A program made the position numbers and the translations under genes. From a virus: DNA of 58,002 nt. The stretch spans positions 1-58,002 of the IMG/VR virus record IMGVR_UViG_3300032322_001610; one strand, written 5' to 3'. Within the stretch, counting starts at the first letter, position 1, and each line of letters starts with the position of its first letter. The notes under the pieces were generated by a model, which searched no databases, had not been told where the DNA came from, and saw nothing but the letters and a program-made list of their open reading frames with translations. Below are positions 52,461 to 58,002 of this stretch, one piece after another.

Positions 52461-52777
52461 TTCACCACCCCCCGCGCCTTGTCAATGGCGGTGTTGCGGT
52501 CGGGGTCCGGGACATGCCGCTTATAGGCTTCCTCGTACCAGATTACGTCCCACTTCTGAGTCAGCGTGCACCACGACACCGCAGCGTACATCTCCTCGCA
52601 CCACCGCGCTCGCTCGGAGTCGGCGTTGGCCGGTGCCATGTGGTGATCCACATACGCCCGCACGCTGTGCTGGTCGACGCCAGCCCGCGCTAGGTGGTGG
52701 TGTCCTTCGAGCGCCTCGGCGATCAGCCAGGTCAAACGGGCAGAGTCGCGCTTCAAGTCTTCGATTTCGTTAGTCAC
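52457..52777 (-). CDS. Hypothetical protein
   Basis: A 106-aa product. GTG at 52777 overlaps the methyltransferase end and follows GAGGAGG. Rich in His, Trp and Glu (EGHHHLARAGVDQHSVRAYV). No family is recognised. Confidence 0.5.
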   Translation of the reverse strand: MTNEIEDLKRDSARLTWLIAEALEGHHHLARAGVDQHSVRAYVDHHMAPANADSERARWCEEMYAAVSWCTLTQKWDVIWYEEAYKRHVPDPDRNTAIDKARGVVK

Positions 52778-53759
52778 TATCGACCTCCTCGAACATGTCA
52801 ATCTGACGATCGTCATCGTCGAAGTCGATGCCAACCTTCGCCGACGCTAGGTTTTTAATCGCTTGCCGGTAGTAGCTGTCCTTCAGTTCCGCGCCGATAG
52901 CCTTGCGACCATTAATCAGCGCTCCGTAGCACTCACTGCCGACTCCCATAAACGGAGTCAGCACGACTTCGCCAGGATTGGTCCTAAGAACTACCGTACG
53001 TTCAATCACGTCCAGTTGCAGCGGGTGCATGTGGCGCTCGTCCTCGCTTTCGCGTGCTTCGCGGTATGGCAGTACTCGCTCTAGTCGAACGTCATCCCAA
53101 AATGCTGATGCGTATTGTCGCCAAATCCAATGACTAAACCTGTTTTCGATCTGATTACCTTTCCACCCACGGTACTGAATCAATTCGGACGGTATCGGCC
53201 GCGATCCGGCGTATCGCATGAGACCTTGAGCATGAGTGACAGGGATAGGGTTCTCTCCCTTCTTGCGAAACAACAAAACGTAGTCGGCCCCGGCTGCGTC
53301 GCAAAGAGTGGAATCCTCGACCATTTGCCGATGCGCCAGCCCCTTCGCCATGGTACGGTTGCGAACCTCCAGCGGCTCCTTCCAGACGTGGTATCTGGCG
53401 GCATATGACCATCCGTGCTTTTTGTGGGCACGAATAATGTCGCCGGTAAAGTCAATAAGGTCCCCTCCGACATTGGCCCCATTGTCTGGCACGTCCATGC
53501 AGTGGACAGCCGTGCATCGGCCAGGTATGGTCAACCGTCCGATCTCATCAATAACGTGGTCGTAATGAGCAAAAAACTCCTCATAACTCCGACAGTTGGA
53601 CAAGTCCCTGTCGCTCGATGAGTAGTGGTAGAGTCCGCAAAAAGGCGGCGAGTACACTGAAAGATGGATCGACTGAGGCTTTAGCCCTCCCATTACCTCA
53701 ATGCAATCGCCATTGTATGCGGCGTAGTTCTGCGTTATTACCTGATCGTTTACAGCCAT
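52770..53759 (-). CDS. N4/N6-type DNA methyltransferase (beta class)
   Basis: A 329-aa product. Catalytic motif IV SPPF at 37-40, then HPLQ (245-248) and the SAM-binding motif I in TPFMGVGSECYGALI (268-282). Motif IV before motif I defines the beta class, and SPPF suggests cytosine-N4 or adenine-N6 methylation. It overlaps the SNF2 helicase gene by 10 nt. It may protect phage DNA from host restriction. Confidence 0.85.
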   Translation of the reverse strand: MAVNDQVITQNYAAYNGDCIEVMGGLKPQSIHLSVYSPPFCGLYHYSSSDRDLSNCRSYEEFFAHYDHVIDEIGRLTIPGRCTAVHCMDVPDNGANVGGDLIDFTGDIIRAHKKHGWSYAARYHVWKEPLEVRNRTMAKGLAHRQMVEDSTLCDAAGADYVLLFRKKGENPIPVTHAQGLMRYAGSRPIPSELIQYRGWKGNQIENRFSHWIWRQYASAFWDDVRLERVLPYREARESEDERHMHPLQLDVIERTVVLRTNPGEVVLTPFMGVGSECYGALINGRKAIGAELKDSYYRQAIKNLASAKVGIDFDDDDRQIDMFEEVDSD

Positions 53760-55222
53760 TCTGGCACCTCCTGCTCCTTTTTGAATGTGGTGGATCTGTC
53801 GATTTTAAGTTCGTTGTTCATCAACTCGACCATATTGGCGAACATCTTTTCGGCCTGCGCGGCCTTGCGATTGAGATTAGCCAGCACTCCGGCCTCGCCT
53901 TCGCTTGATACCATGTCGATCACTACATCGCGCTTTTGTCCGAACCGCCAGCAACGCCGAACGCCTTGGTAAAACTGCTCAAACGAGTGAGATGGGAATG
54001 TCGCCTGGTGAGCGCATCGCTGCCAATTCAATCCATACCCTGCAATCTGGGGTTTTGTAATCAGGCGAGACAATTGCCCGCTTGAAAACGCAGTCAATAG
54101 CTCTTCCTTCTTTTCGTCGTCGTCAGCGCCTGAAATCTGCTCCGCGCCCTTGACCAGCTTTTTGAGAAGATCTCCCTCTGGGTTGAGATGGCACCACATT
54201 ACAGACGAGTCGTGCTCGCATACCAGTTCTGCGACCTTCTCGCATCGCTCTTTAATTGTGCGCCTACGCTCCTCTTTTTGCTCCGGCAAAGTCCTGGCCG
54301 GCGTATCGAACAATTGCCCCTCGCGGGCCCTTGAGGCGCGGATGACGTGCTCGCGCATTGTTAAGGCGGGGAGGTCAAACCCATCATCAGTAAACCCAAC
54401 GTCCGATGGACGGCGAACCGCCCGCGAAAACGAGACTACCCATCGCCAAAAGTCACGCTCTGCATAAGACCTAAGCCGGTACGTGTCGCGTCCCCAGGCC
54501 ACTCCTCCGGTGCCATTTTCGCGCTTGAAGAATTTTGAGAGCATATCGTAGTAGCCCATGTAGCCAAGCGCTTCAGCCGAGGTCCCCAACTCCATATAGT
54601 CATTTGGCGCGGCCGTTGCCGTGCATAGCAGCCGATACGGAACAGTTCGCATGAACTGAGTTACAGCCGCTTTTGTCGCTCCGTCGAAGTTTTTCAGGAT
54701 CGACGACTCATCGCAGATTACCGCCCCAAAGTCATCTGGATCGAACTTCTCCAGCCTCTGGTAGTTTGTTACCACTACCGATGCCGTGCCTGGCAACTCG
54801 CCTTGTTTTGATCGAAAAGCTTCAATTCCAAACTTTTCGGATTCGGTGATTGTTTGCCCCGCAACGGCAAGCGGAGTCAACACGAGCGAATGCTTTCCGG
54901 TATGCCTACATGCGTTGTCGGCAAACGTCAGCTGCATCAACGTCTTTCCCAACCCGCAATCCGCAAACAGCGCGGCCCTCCCTTTTCGACATGACCACTC
55001 AATTAGTGATCGCTGAAAGCCAAACGCCATCGACGGAATAAATCTTGCGGCGAATCCGTCAGAACATCCCAAATCGGCTTTTGTTGCCAAAAAATGCTTG
55101 TAATCTCCCATCTCCATCAAATACTCCTCTGCGAACCAATCATTCATCCCCAGACGCGCCCCCGCGTCCTCGTAATTCGCCGCGCAGCGCAGTTGCTCGG
55201 CGCGGCAGTGGGCAATCGTCAT
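53750..55222 (-). CDS. SNF2-like SF2 helicase
   Basis: A 490-aa product. Walker A FADCGLGKT (K93), VICDESS (D170, E171), LLCTATAAPND (motif III) and a C-terminal Q-F-Y-Q-G-V-R-R-C-W-R-F-G-Q motif VI identify a SNF2-type ATPase. Start at 55222 overlaps the C5 methyltransferase stop. Its adjacency to two methyltransferases suggests a modification or anti-restriction role, possibly DNA translocation that exposes sites. Confidence 0.8.
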   Translation of the reverse strand: MTIAHCRAEQLRCAANYEDAGARLGMNDWFAEEYLMEMGDYKHFLATKADLGCSDGFAARFIPSMAFGFQRSLIEWSCRKGRAALFADCGLGKTLMQLTFADNACRHTGKHSLVLTPLAVAGQTITESEKFGIEAFRSKQGELPGTASVVVTNYQRLEKFDPDDFGAVICDESSILKNFDGATKAAVTQFMRTVPYRLLCTATAAPNDYMELGTSAEALGYMGYYDMLSKFFKRENGTGGVAWGRDTYRLRSYAERDFWRWVVSFSRAVRRPSDVGFTDDGFDLPALTMREHVIRASRAREGQLFDTPARTLPEQKEERRRTIKERCEKVAELVCEHDSSVMWCHLNPEGDLLKKLVKGAEQISGADDDEKKEELLTAFSSGQLSRLITKPQIAGYGLNWQRCAHQATFPSHSFEQFYQGVRRCWRFGQKRDVVIDMVSSEGEAGVLANLNRKAAQAEKMFANMVELMNNELKIDRSTTFKKEQEVPEWL

Positions 55223-56217
55223 GCAACATCCATATACGCCCTGATAAATTCAGCGGCCACTTGGGGCACTATGGCGTTACCGAATCCGCGGAGCGTTCCC
55301 GTCCGCGAGTACCAGTGCTCTTGACCGGCGCGGCGAATAGCCACTCGACCGGATACCCCATGAGCCAACGGGAAAAGTCCGGATTGAGTGCGCCGCGCTT
55401 TTCCGTCGAGGCAGTGGAGGATGTCGAAGTCGGACCATGCGCAGTGACCTGCCGCGACAAGTTCGGCGTCTTGTCGTAGGTGTTGTTCTCGCTGCCCGTC
55501 TCGCTCTTCCAGTCGCGAGCGTTGGGCGTAGTCCAGCCGGAGAGGTAAGCCTGATTTACCAAACTGCCATTTCGATTCGCCTGCGCCGGTGAAAGCGTTG
55601 CGTGCGCCGCATCCTGCTTTGTTGGGGAAAGCCAGCCCACCAGCCGCGCCACCGCCGTCAGCGTATCCGCTACGCCTCGACTGATCCGCGCCCCACTGCT
55701 CTCCGCATGCTCGCTCCGGGCAGTCGGCCACCCAGAACAATCGCTGTCGGATATGGGGCGCCCCGACGCCCGCAGCGCAAAGCTCCGCAAACCCCAGCCG
55801 GTACGAATCTTCCTCCACGTCAGCTTGTACTCCAGAGAGCCATCGCAATCCAGCCGCTCCCGCAACCTGCTCACCAAAGACGACGTTAGGGCGGCACTGG
55901 GCGATGAGTTTCCGAAACGCAGGCCAGAGGTGGCGCGGGTCGTCTTCGCCGAGGCCCTTCCCGGCAACGGAGAATGGCTGGCAGGGGCAACTGCCGGTCC
56001 AGACTGGCTCATCGTCGGGCCATTCGGCGAGACGCAGGGCAAGCGGCCATCCGCCGATTCCGGCGAAGAAATGGCATTGGGTGTATCGAATAAGGTCGTC
56101 TGCATTCAGGTTCTCGATGGGGGTTTCGTTCACGTCGCCGGGCGGGATTTCCCCGGCATTGATCAGGCCGCGGAGCCACTGCGCGGCGTAGGGGTCGATT
56201 TCGTTGTAGAGGTTCAC
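55219..56217 (-). CDS. DNA cytosine C5 methyltransferase
   Basis: A 332-aa product. GTG at 56217 overlaps the upstream stop. Motif I HFFAGIGGWPLAL (49-61), motif IV GSCPCQPFS with C79 as nucleophile, motif VI-like FGEQVAG (E116), QRLFW near 158-162 (motif VIII), and the terminal GFGNAIVPQVAAEFI (motifs IX-X). The short central part is the likely target-recognition region. A 278-codon frame is nested on the same strand in another reading frame. Confidence 0.88.
   Translation of the reverse strand: MNLYNEIDPYAAQWLRGLINAGEIPPGDVNETPIENLNADDLIRYTQCHFFAGIGGWPLALRLAEWPDDEPVWTGSCPCQPFSVAGKGLGEDDPRHLWPAFRKLIAQCRPNVVFGEQVAGAAGLRWLSGVQADVEEDSYRLGFAELCAAGVGAPHIRQRLFWVADCPERACGEQWGADQSRRSGYADGGGAAGGLAFPNKAGCGARNAFTGAGESKWQFGKSGLPLRLDYAQRSRLEERDGQREQHLRQDAELVAAGHCAWSDFDILHCLDGKARRTQSGLFPLAHGVSGRVAIRRAGQEHWYSRTGTLRGFGNAIVPQVAAEFIRAYMDVA
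55269..56105 (-). CDS. Nested ORF in another frame inside the C5 methyltransferase gene
   Basis: A 278-aa frame. It reads like a genuine protein: residues starting MQTTLFDTPNAISSPE, a SLEYKLTWRKIRTGWGLRSF segment, GWTTPNARDWKSETG, and LNPDFSRWLMGYPVEWL near the C-terminus. Such GW-T-P-x-A-R-D-W and LNP-F-x-x-WLMG-P-x-x-W motifs are recurrent in phage proteins near C5 methyltransferases as I know them. The start has only a weak ribosome site. Both frames carry conserved-looking motifs over the same DNA, so real overprinting is plausible. Confidence 0.5.
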   Translation of the reverse strand: MQTTLFDTPNAISSPESADGRLPCVSPNGPTMSQSGPAVAPASHSPLPGRASAKTTRATSGLRFGNSSPSAALTSSLVSRLRERLDCDGSLEYKLTWRKIRTGWGLRSFALRASGRPISDSDCSGWPTARSEHAESSGARISRGVADTLTAVARLVGWLSPTKQDAAHATLSPAQANRNGSLVNQAYLSGWTTPNARDWKSETGSENNTYDKTPNLSRQVTAHGPTSTSSTASTEKRGALNPDFSRWLMGYPVEWLFAAPVKSTGTRGRERSADSVTP

Positions 56218-56930
56218 CGCCCCCACTCCCCCGCCGCCGGAACCCGCGTGACCTTGTGCCCGCGGATGTCCACCGGTTTGGGCCGCTCGAAGGCTTCGGG
56301 GCCAATCACGATGTCGACGACCGCCACCGGCTTCTGCACGGCCTCGGTCAGGCCCTTGCCGGGGAACGCCGTATTCCACCGGTGGGCCGGAGGGGCCGAC
56401 TCTGCAACGCACTGCCTCTGCTTCTTCTTCGCTGCCTTGGCCGCCCTGCGCTGTTCGGAGCACCCAACGCACAACTTGCCAGTCGCCGTCGCCAGTGGAC
56501 CAGCGGACCCGCAGATTCGGCAGACCTTCGGCTTCGCCGCAGCCCTCGGCGCAATGCCCATCTCGCGGCGCTTCGCTTCCTTCGCCGCCCGGTCACAGGC
56601 AAGGCAGAGCGAGCCATATTGCGTGCGCGGCTCGTCGCACCGGGTGCATTTCTCCGGGTCGAAGTACTGACGCGGCGGAATGCCCTTGGCGCGAGCCCGC
56701 TGTGCGAGCATCTCGCGGTAGTGCTCCGCGCAAAGGGCGTACTGGATGCCTTCCCGGCGCGGCTCGTCGCAATGCTTGCACTTCGGTTGATATTTTCCTC
56801 CGCGCCGCTTGGCCGGCCCACGTCGCCGCTTGTCTTGCGCTCTTCGGTATTCGTTGAGATGCGCGTGACACAGCGGCATGGATGATTTCTCGTGGCGCGG
56901 TTGGTCGCAGAGGCGACAGGTGCGGGTCAT
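56214..56930 (-). CDS. Protein with four zinc knuckles
   Basis: A 238-aa, very basic product. Four CxxC...C..H/C units: CRLCDQPRHEKSSMPLCHAH, CKHCDEPRREGIQYALCAEH, CTRCDEPRTQYGSLCLACDR and CRICGSAGPLATATGKLCVG. The start at 56930 (GAAGGG) overlaps the upstream stop. It probably binds nucleic acid. Its end is coupled to the C5 methyltransferase start. Family not recognised. Confidence 0.65.
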   Translation of the reverse strand: MTRTCRLCDQPRHEKSSMPLCHAHLNEYRRAQDKRRRGPAKRRGGKYQPKCKHCDEPRREGIQYALCAEHYREMLAQRARAKGIPPRQYFDPEKCTRCDEPRTQYGSLCLACDRAAKEAKRREMGIAPRAAAKPKVCRICGSAGPLATATGKLCVGCSEQRRAAKAAKKKQRQCVAESAPPAHRWNTAFPGKGLTEAVQKPVAVVDIVIGPEAFERPKPVDIRGHKVTRVPAAGEWGR

Positions 56931-57088
56931 CCCTTCACCGCCTTTCGCCATTCCTCCGGCGATGCCAGTTTCATGTACGCCGCAGGCCACGCCCAATCGG
57001 CCACGTTGCGGTAGATCAGGTCGATGATCTCGGCCTTGACCAAGGGGTCGGCGAGGGCGGCTTCTAGGTGCATCTGATTGATCGTCAT
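56927..57088 (-). CDS. Small hypothetical protein (53 aa)
   Basis: MTINQMHLEAALADPLVKAE then IIDLIYRNVADWAWPAAYMK and LASPEEWRKAVKG. ATG at 57088 and an ATGA overlap with the next gene. Good protein character for its size. No family is recognised. Confidence 0.6.
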   Translation of the reverse strand: MTINQMHLEAALADPLVKAEIIDLIYRNVADWAWPAAYMKLASPEEWRKAVKG

Positions 57089-57091
57089 TTC

Positions 57092-57565
57092 TCACTCCTG
57101 CCCCCTCGCCGCCGGTGGCTCCGGCATCCCCGGCAGCGGCAGGGCGTGGGTGGGGGTGCCCAGCAAATTTTGCCAACCCAGATCCCACGCCTCATGACGC
57201 CACCGCGCCTTGAACCAGTGCTCGAATCCGGGCTCCCACACCAGCCACCAATTCCAGTCCCGATGTTTCTCGCTGATCGGTTCCGGCGTAGTCAGCCGGC
57301 GCAATTCGCGGAGTTCGGCGAGCAGGGCGGGGAGGGCGTTGTGGGCGAGGGCGATGAGACGAGAGTCGGCAGCGCTGATAAACCCGGTGAGCCGAAACCC
57401 TCTATTTGTGCCGTCGTAGTATCCTTGGCCTGCTTCGATGGCCCAGTATCTTTCGTCCGGTTCATCGTCAATGCCAGCGTTCGGAACCAGCGTTATCTCT
57501 CCCGGCGTGGCCTTCGCTAGCGCCGCCTCCAGCGCGTCGAGTTCGTTATCTGTTAGTCGTTTCAT
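57092..57565 (-). CDS. Conserved hypothetical protein
   Basis: A 157-aa product starting [20 protein letters not shown]. An N-terminal helix, a central [17 protein letters not shown] segment, then [17 protein letters not shown]. The first part has the look of early-phage proteins that bind ribosomal or host partners, but that is a guess. It overlaps the stop of the pentapeptide gene. Confidence 0.6.
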
Positions 57566-58002
57566 TGTTCCTCACCTCCAGCACGTCCCGGATCGCCCTC
57601 AAATAAACGCCGTACTCCGCAATCTGCTGCTCGGTGTAGCCAGCTTTGCGCCCCACAGCCTCGAATCGCTCCAGCCACTCGGCCAACGTCATGCGCTGGC
57701 AGCCTATGCGAATGTCGTCGTCAATGGCAACGATGCTGTCAAGGGATGCTTGAATGACGGCAACGTACTGCTTACATTGGCTCAGGTCCGCCCCGCGCAG
57801 GTTCGCCCCGCGCAGGTTCGCCCCGCGCAGGTCCGCCCCGCGCAGGTTCGCCCCGCGCAGGTTCGCCCCGCGCAGGTCCGCCTCGCTCAGGTCCGCCCCG
57901 CTCAGGTCCGCCCCGCGCAGGTCCGCCTCGCTCAGGTCCGCCTCGCTCAGGTCCGCCCCGCGCAGGTCCGCCTCGCTCAGGTCCGCCTCGCTCAGGTCCG
58001 CC
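57546..58002 (-). CDS. Pentapeptide-repeat protein, C-terminal part
   Basis: The 3 prime part of the gene that begins at 249. After the repeats (A-D-L-S/R-G/E) comes a distinct C-terminal domain of about 75 aa ([20 protein letters not shown] onwards), helical with a stop TAA at 57548-57546. Removing the 109-bp overlap keeps the frame across the join; the total is 198 aa. The stop overlaps the downstream ATG. Confidence 0.85.
57894..58002. repeat. Right copy of 109-bp terminal direct repeat
   Basis: Identical to bases 1-109. The order of unit variants (CTC, CGC, CTC, CTC, CGC, CTC, CTC) agrees. It should be removed when the genome is treated as circular. Confidence 0.85.

Follow-up and report, generated by a model that had tools for sequence, protein, structure and literature searches.

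Does the long open reading frame nested in a second frame of a phage C5-methyltransferase gene encode a protein of its own and, if it does, what might that protein contribute? The locus lies in a viral DNA of 58,002 nucleotides (IMG/VR record IMGVR_UViG_3300032322_001610), which in its whole length is referred to here as the window. The methyltransferase chain is called alpha and the product of the nested frame beta. A first-pass annotation had claimed a 278-codon nested frame, and its coordinates, strand and length were all exact; every motif quoted in that annotation was also located in the sequence, with PLAHGVS and GFGNAIVP in the alpha frame and LNPDFSRWLMGYPVEW and GWTTPNARDW in the beta frame. 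The alpha open reading frame extends in full over 55219-56472, with the GTG at 56217 as the likely start; the GTGA at this position overlaps the stop of the upstream reading frame and is preceded by the Shine-Dalgarno-like sequence GGGGGAG. The features of both chains are collected in Table 1.

Table 1. Positions of the alpha and beta reading frames and of their conserved segments in the window
Feature	Position	Strand	Remarks
alpha, C5-methyltransferase	55219..56217	-	332 aa; GTG 56217; stop 55219-55221
beta, nested ORF	55269..56105	-	ATG 56105; 278 codons, stop-free; +1 frame of alpha, wholly inside
alpha motif I, HFFAGIGGW	56047..56073	-	residues invariant or nearly invariant in alignment A2
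alpha motif IV, GSCPCQPFS	55969..55995	-	catalytic Cys; P78, C79, Q80 and S83 invariant in A2
alpha motif VI-like, VFGEQV	55864..55881	-	GEQV invariant in A2
alpha motif VIII, RQRLFWVA	55726..55749	-	R157 and R159 invariant in A2; just before first beta module
alpha motif X, GFGNAIVPQVA	55255..55287	-	GNAI invariant in A2
beta conserved helix/hairpin segment, SLEYKLTWRKIRTGWGLRSFALRAS	55764..55838	-	G89 and W97 invariant in alignment A1
beta module 1, WPTARSEHAESSG	55635..55730	-	residues 126-157; common to L001
beta module 2, WLSPTKQDAAHATLS	55536..55634	-	residues 158-190; other type in L001
beta module 3, WTTPNARDWKSETGS	55434..55535	-	residues 191-224; other type in L001; two further modules come after it in L002
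beta motif IX, LNPDFSRWLMGYPVEW	55341..55388	-	opposite alpha FPLAHGVSGR; P242, W247-P252 (WLMGYP) and W255 invariant in A1

Several neighbouring genes were noted. An SNF2-like helicase lies directly 3′ of alpha, its ATG adjoining the alpha stop, together with an amino-methyltransferase (window 52770-55222), and the same methyltransferase-helicase order was observed in phage K1ind2. Directly upstream, and overlapping the alpha start, is a Cys-rich protein with repeated C-x2-C (window 56214-57188), for which no Pfam match was found. A pentapeptide-repeat protein (PF00805, E 5e-33) at window 57546-58001 runs off the window edge, and the DNA repeats of its gene leave several frames open.

The length of the nested frame was compared with shuffled versions of the alpha gene. 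Synonymous shuffling of alpha's own codons produced +1 runs of at least 278 codons in 3.0% of shuffles, and with the codon usage of the neighbouring genes this proportion was 0.23%. In a gene as GC-rich as this one, the length of the beta frame taken alone therefore carries only moderate significance, and it is the comparative evidence that decides.

To avoid bias from selecting loci by beta, viral loci were collected in a search with alpha only, yielding 80 loci. A nested +1 frame with WLMG.P was found in 69 of these and variants such as WLQGLP, WLMALP and WLLGLP in 10, the remaining contig being cut off, so that beta is present in all complete members; in the relatives found with beta, the frame is open in the same +1 register within alpha. 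As a control, 29 single-chain bacterial C5-methyltransferase genes were analysed, in which the +1 open run averages 23% of the span, WLMG occurs in none of the other frames, and motif IX can be recognised in frame 0 for most. Conservation of beta was then measured by holding the alpha protein of each relative fixed, shuffling its codons among synonyms and scoring the +1 frame against the window beta. The observed beta similarity exceeded every alpha-fixed shuffle for 32 relatives (z 5.6-18.8, median 8). For the beta N-domain only, which lies over the best conserved part of alpha, the median z was 3.1 across 145 relatives, with 79 of them above all 100 shuffles. In the converse test, which held beta constant, each module region would be expected to contain 4.0 stops in the alpha frame, and alpha is open in the 154 genes tested.

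Within the lineage of the window, changes that affect both proteins at once are fewer than expected. Across motifs I-VIII, only 2 of 25 differences between the window and relative L001 change both proteins, as against 45% expected (P=7e-5), and for relative L002 the figure is 7 of 37 (P=8e-4); with the more distant L004, depletion of changes to both proteins was not significant (P 0.08). In this region identity is 0.61 for alpha and 0.43 for beta, with changes concentrated at alpha codon position 3. Over the beta modules the pattern is reversed, with differences clustering at beta codon position 3 and an identity of 0.67 for beta versus 0.36 for the alpha frame among module pairs that were picked by beta similarity, the reverse choice giving 302 alpha-similar pairs versus 1313 beta-similar pairs. 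Both frames are under purifying selection and form an overprinted same-strand gene pair, in which constraint falls mostly on alpha over motifs I-VIII and mostly on beta over the modules. The extensive same-strand overprinting that the first-pass annotation had suspected is thus borne out by conservation of beta beyond the alpha-fixed shuffles and by constraint on both frames, and its caveat that second-frame matches might all be mistranslated methyltransferases under no constraint is answered by a constraint on beta that does not derive from alpha. The idea that the frame is open by chance in a GC-rich gene, with mistranslated methyltransferases as its homologues, is refuted by the comparative data and retains a negligible probability, for although runs of this length appear in up to 3% of alpha codon shuffles, beta is conserved beyond those shuffles, the modules carry a codon-position pattern of their own, double-nonsynonymous changes are depleted, and the frame is absent from single-chain methyltransferase genes.

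Beta could in principle be made as a frameshift fusion with the alpha N-terminus and not as a separate protein. A search for single-frame fusions found only L064 and L154, in which parts of alpha and beta share a frame; these loci favour such a fusion, but both look decayed or frameshifted. Upstream of the first beta ATG, a Shine-Dalgarno match of at least 4 nt occurs in 63% of cases versus 19% at random positions, an enrichment that supports a separate internal start for beta, even though the match at the window's own beta start is weak (GAG). In addition, the beta N-domain that precedes motif VIII is conserved beyond what alpha requires and would be needless for a late fusion. Given the start-site enrichment and the conservation of this domain, the frameshift fusion was rejected as very improbable.

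Both frames were searched against protein databases, as the first-pass annotation had suggested. Alpha matches PF00145 with 49.2 bits (cut-off 22) and phrog_363 with E 4e-75, and a search with its profile picked up M.HhaI (E down to 3e-20) and M.HaeIII. Motifs I, IV, VI, VIII and X of the PF00145 family are all present in alpha. Neither motif IX nor a target-recognition domain (TRD) was found in the alpha chain, the motif IX pattern being confined to beta. Over the module region alpha is poorly conserved and rich in Gly, Arg, Ala and Asp with few hydrophobic residues, a composition suggesting that this stretch of alpha serves as a linker.

Beta matches phrog_1008 (E 2e-22) and also phrog_31772, both of which are labelled DNA methyltransferase, and phrog_1008 is matched by 40 of 40 short betas. 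It is not recognised by Pfam or NCBIfam, and neither single-sequence nor profile searches against solved structures (PDB) gave a match. Its C-terminus agrees with motif IX in spacing and in the key residues (LxPxxxxxLMGYP), and the counterpart of this pattern in single-chain enzymes of bacterial genomes lies in frame 0 (LTPRECARLMGYP). When the beta profile was compared with a profile of single-chain C5-methyltransferases, the best local match fell on motif IX (20 columns, score 20.7), a score reached by 1 of 100 column shuffles, and against one single-chain enzyme the best match was again on motif IX (P 0.046); a local comparison of the smaller A3 profile with single-chain enzymes did not recover motif IX (P 0.22). 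From the 20-column match and the conserved pattern, the beta C-terminus most likely corresponds to motif IX. AlphaFold predictions of beta alone were poor, with a pLDDT of 49 for the window alignment and 64.7 for a one-module relative, in which the helix/hairpin segment was the best-predicted part (pLDDT 92-94). Foldseek with this low-pLDDT model of the one-module relative returned no match at E<=0.001.

The stretch of beta between the hairpin segment and motif IX is made up of tandem modules with a median length of 31 aa that start with W-P-T-P-x-A-x-D. The 157 unique betas have 1-7 modules each, apart from one in which none was detected, and these modules sit between alpha motif VIII and beta motif IX. 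In locus L140 (2101-3276), beta was observed to contain a long, unrelated-looking insertion between modules that is possibly helix-turn-helix-like. Among genes with alpha identity below 75%, 1313 similar module pairs were found, 813 of them at different ordinal positions, compared with 0 in shuffled modules. Module similarity reaches 0.9 where the alphas are about 53% identical and 0.81 where they are 40% identical, and the share of gene pairs with a module in common is roughly flat, at 8-14%, across alpha identities from 50% to 80%. Individual comparisons show the exchange of modules in the DNA itself. Between the window and L001, identity is 92-100% over most of motifs I-VIII, drops to 40-58% in modules 2-3 and returns to 93-98% at motif IX. 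L002 carries the modules of the window and, in addition, a 174-nt insertion holding two more, and L005 and L006 differ in one module. Modules are thus exchanged, gained and lost by phages as cassettes, with both frames staying open.

Our preferred reading, to which we assign a probability of about 0.78, is that of a split phage C5-methyltransferase, dual-coded at this locus, whose target-recognition modules lie in the overprinted frame. In this enzyme, alpha would supply the SAM-binding and catalytic part (motifs I-VIII) as well as motif X, and beta, started at its own ATG inside alpha, would supply an N-terminal domain, three exchangeable modules of about 32 aa and motif IX. The two chains would be co-translated and, as reported for M.EcoHK31I, come together to form the active enzyme. 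A role of beta as the target-recognition subunit is suggested by the position of its modules at the TRD place of single-chain enzymes and by the tandem TRDs of Bacillus phage enzymes. Judging from their position, repetition and exchange, each module probably reads one DNA sequence, in which case the phage would methylate several sites and evade several restriction enzymes, with module exchange changing which ones. The co-linear order of the motifs suggests that the arrangement may go back to a single-chain ancestor in which the frame changed. The two-protein reading of the first-pass annotation stands, but it missed that beta most likely completes the same enzyme by supplying motif IX and the variable target-recognition region, with a precedent in M.EcoHK31I.

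Two other readings also accept beta as a real protein. In one, beta is a selected, overprinted protein with a separate function, such as an inhibitor, a decoy or a DNA-binding partner, as might be expected of a protein that has no solved homologue and no confident fold and that Pfam and NCBIfam do not recognise as a methyltransferase. We regard this as unlikely, because the beta C-terminus has the very motif IX pattern that alpha is without, the modules lie exactly at the TRD place between alpha VIII and beta IX, beta accompanies alpha in all complete alpha-selected loci, and the PHROGs label is DNA methyltransferase. In the other, beta is the specificity subunit, but its array forms one composite recognition surface or a linker of variable length. 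This is a somewhat better candidate, though still an improbable one: a module number ranging from 1 to 7 and a beta that alone is not predicted to fold would both suit it, but module types recur at other ordinal positions and in divergent genes with up to 90% similarity, as would be expected of autonomous units.

The beta family is widespread, and a beta relative is encoded in 165 INPHARED records. In the K1ind2 and PhiXhv-28 records, two of the annotated records examined, both frames are annotated as DNA methyltransferase, and in the N15 and epsilon15 GenBank records alpha alone is annotated. The statement in the first-pass annotation that the second-frame motifs recur in phage proteins near C5-methyltransferases agrees with these records and with phrog_1008 and phrog_31772. 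Across loci in which motifs IV and IX were recognised, counts that include repeat fetches of the same contig, 265 have the nested +1 arrangement, 9 have an alpha that stops before motif X and 2 are single-frame. A beta profile match was found in 14 of 200 genomes of the phylum of Tropicimonas, and the nested beta also occurs with at least two further alpha types (L136/L137/L140 and L334/L337). Contig C20 of a Tropicimonas genome (G001) was observed to carry several nested alpha/beta loci (L334, L337 and L343), and at least two of these, L334 and L337, have a different alpha type and LNPLFVEALMGWPTGW or LNPRFVEALMGWPTGW as motif IX. In a further clade, consisting of L138 (2256-3533) and L321-L325, the enzyme is in three pieces, with motifs I-VIII in alpha, the modules and motif IX in beta, and motif X in a third reading frame directly after beta, so that the beta modules and motif IX are free of alpha overlap. 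The end of alpha after motif VIII in this clade is a hint that the overlapped stretch of alpha may be dispensable.

It is rare for a long same-strand overlap to be conserved in both frames and to have hundreds of relatives, and such overlaps are usually difficult to demonstrate. At this locus, the selection acting on one frame can be quantified apart from that on the other, and the two frames share out the work along the gene. From the cassette swaps it is clear that DNA under dual coding is still able to evolve through the exchange of modules, a surprising outcome given that no cassette may close either frame. If the modules read DNA, the methylation specificities of many phages could be predicted from them directly and put to the test. 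Annotation pipelines that allow one gene per stretch lose half of the enzyme. With less confidence than for the locus itself, we lean towards the broader view that there is a large, phage-wide class of C5-methyltransferases in which an overprinted second gene holds the DNA-recognition modules, and that evasion of restriction is diversified by recombining short dual-frame cassettes. In the literature searched, no description was found of the frame overlap in phages, of the module arrays, of module exchange or of the breadth of the arrangement.

Compared with known systems, the catalytic part of alpha is like that of the single-chain C5-methyltransferases (M.HhaI and M.HaeIII; PF00145), in which, in contrast, the TRD and motif IX share a frame with motifs I-VIII and X. 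The PHROG database lists the alpha family (PHROG 363) and the beta families (PHROG 1008 and 31772) separately, their overlapping frames being unstated there. M.AquI is a two-subunit C5-methyltransferase whose smaller chain carries motif IX (PMC3404938). In this it resembles the proposed split enzyme of the window, where motif IX is in beta, but its small subunit holds IX and X together, whereas motif X of the window is in alpha. To our knowledge, M.AquI has no such nested overlap.

The closest likeness in motif arrangement is to M.EcoHK31I, which, along with M.EaeI, was reportedly described as a two-polypeptide C5-methyltransferase by Lee, Kam and Shaw in 1995. The gene for the small subunit of M.EcoHK31I lies within that for the large one but is read in a different frame, just as beta of the window is read in a second frame of the alpha gene, and overprinting in a split C5-methyltransferase would thus have a precedent. 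With regard to motifs, the window too has motif IX in the small chain and I-VIII and X in the large one. In M.EcoHK31I, the large subunit carries motifs I-VIII and X and the small subunit motif IX, with the TRD assigned to the large subunit, itself a prediction (PMC3404938). The window differs in having its variable tandem modules in beta and in the lack of a recognised cognate restriction gene among the neighbouring genes, and cassette exchange is unreported for M.EcoHK31I in the sources consulted. The split of motif IX is therefore already known from M.EcoHK31I, and what appears to be new is the presence of exchangeable tandem modules in an overprinted frame. The modules themselves find their nearest parallel in the C5-methyltransferases of the Bacillus phages SPR, SPbeta, phi3T, rho11s and H2, in which tandem TRDs in one polypeptide confer several specificities and guard against several restriction systems (PMC12707154, PMC8936443). 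These enzymes are likewise phage-borne and have tandem recognition units between motifs VIII and IX, the place at which the tandem modules of the window lie; DNA recognition by the window modules would extend the likeness, but theirs is a single polypeptide in one frame, whereas the units of the window are in a second protein encoded by an overlapping frame.
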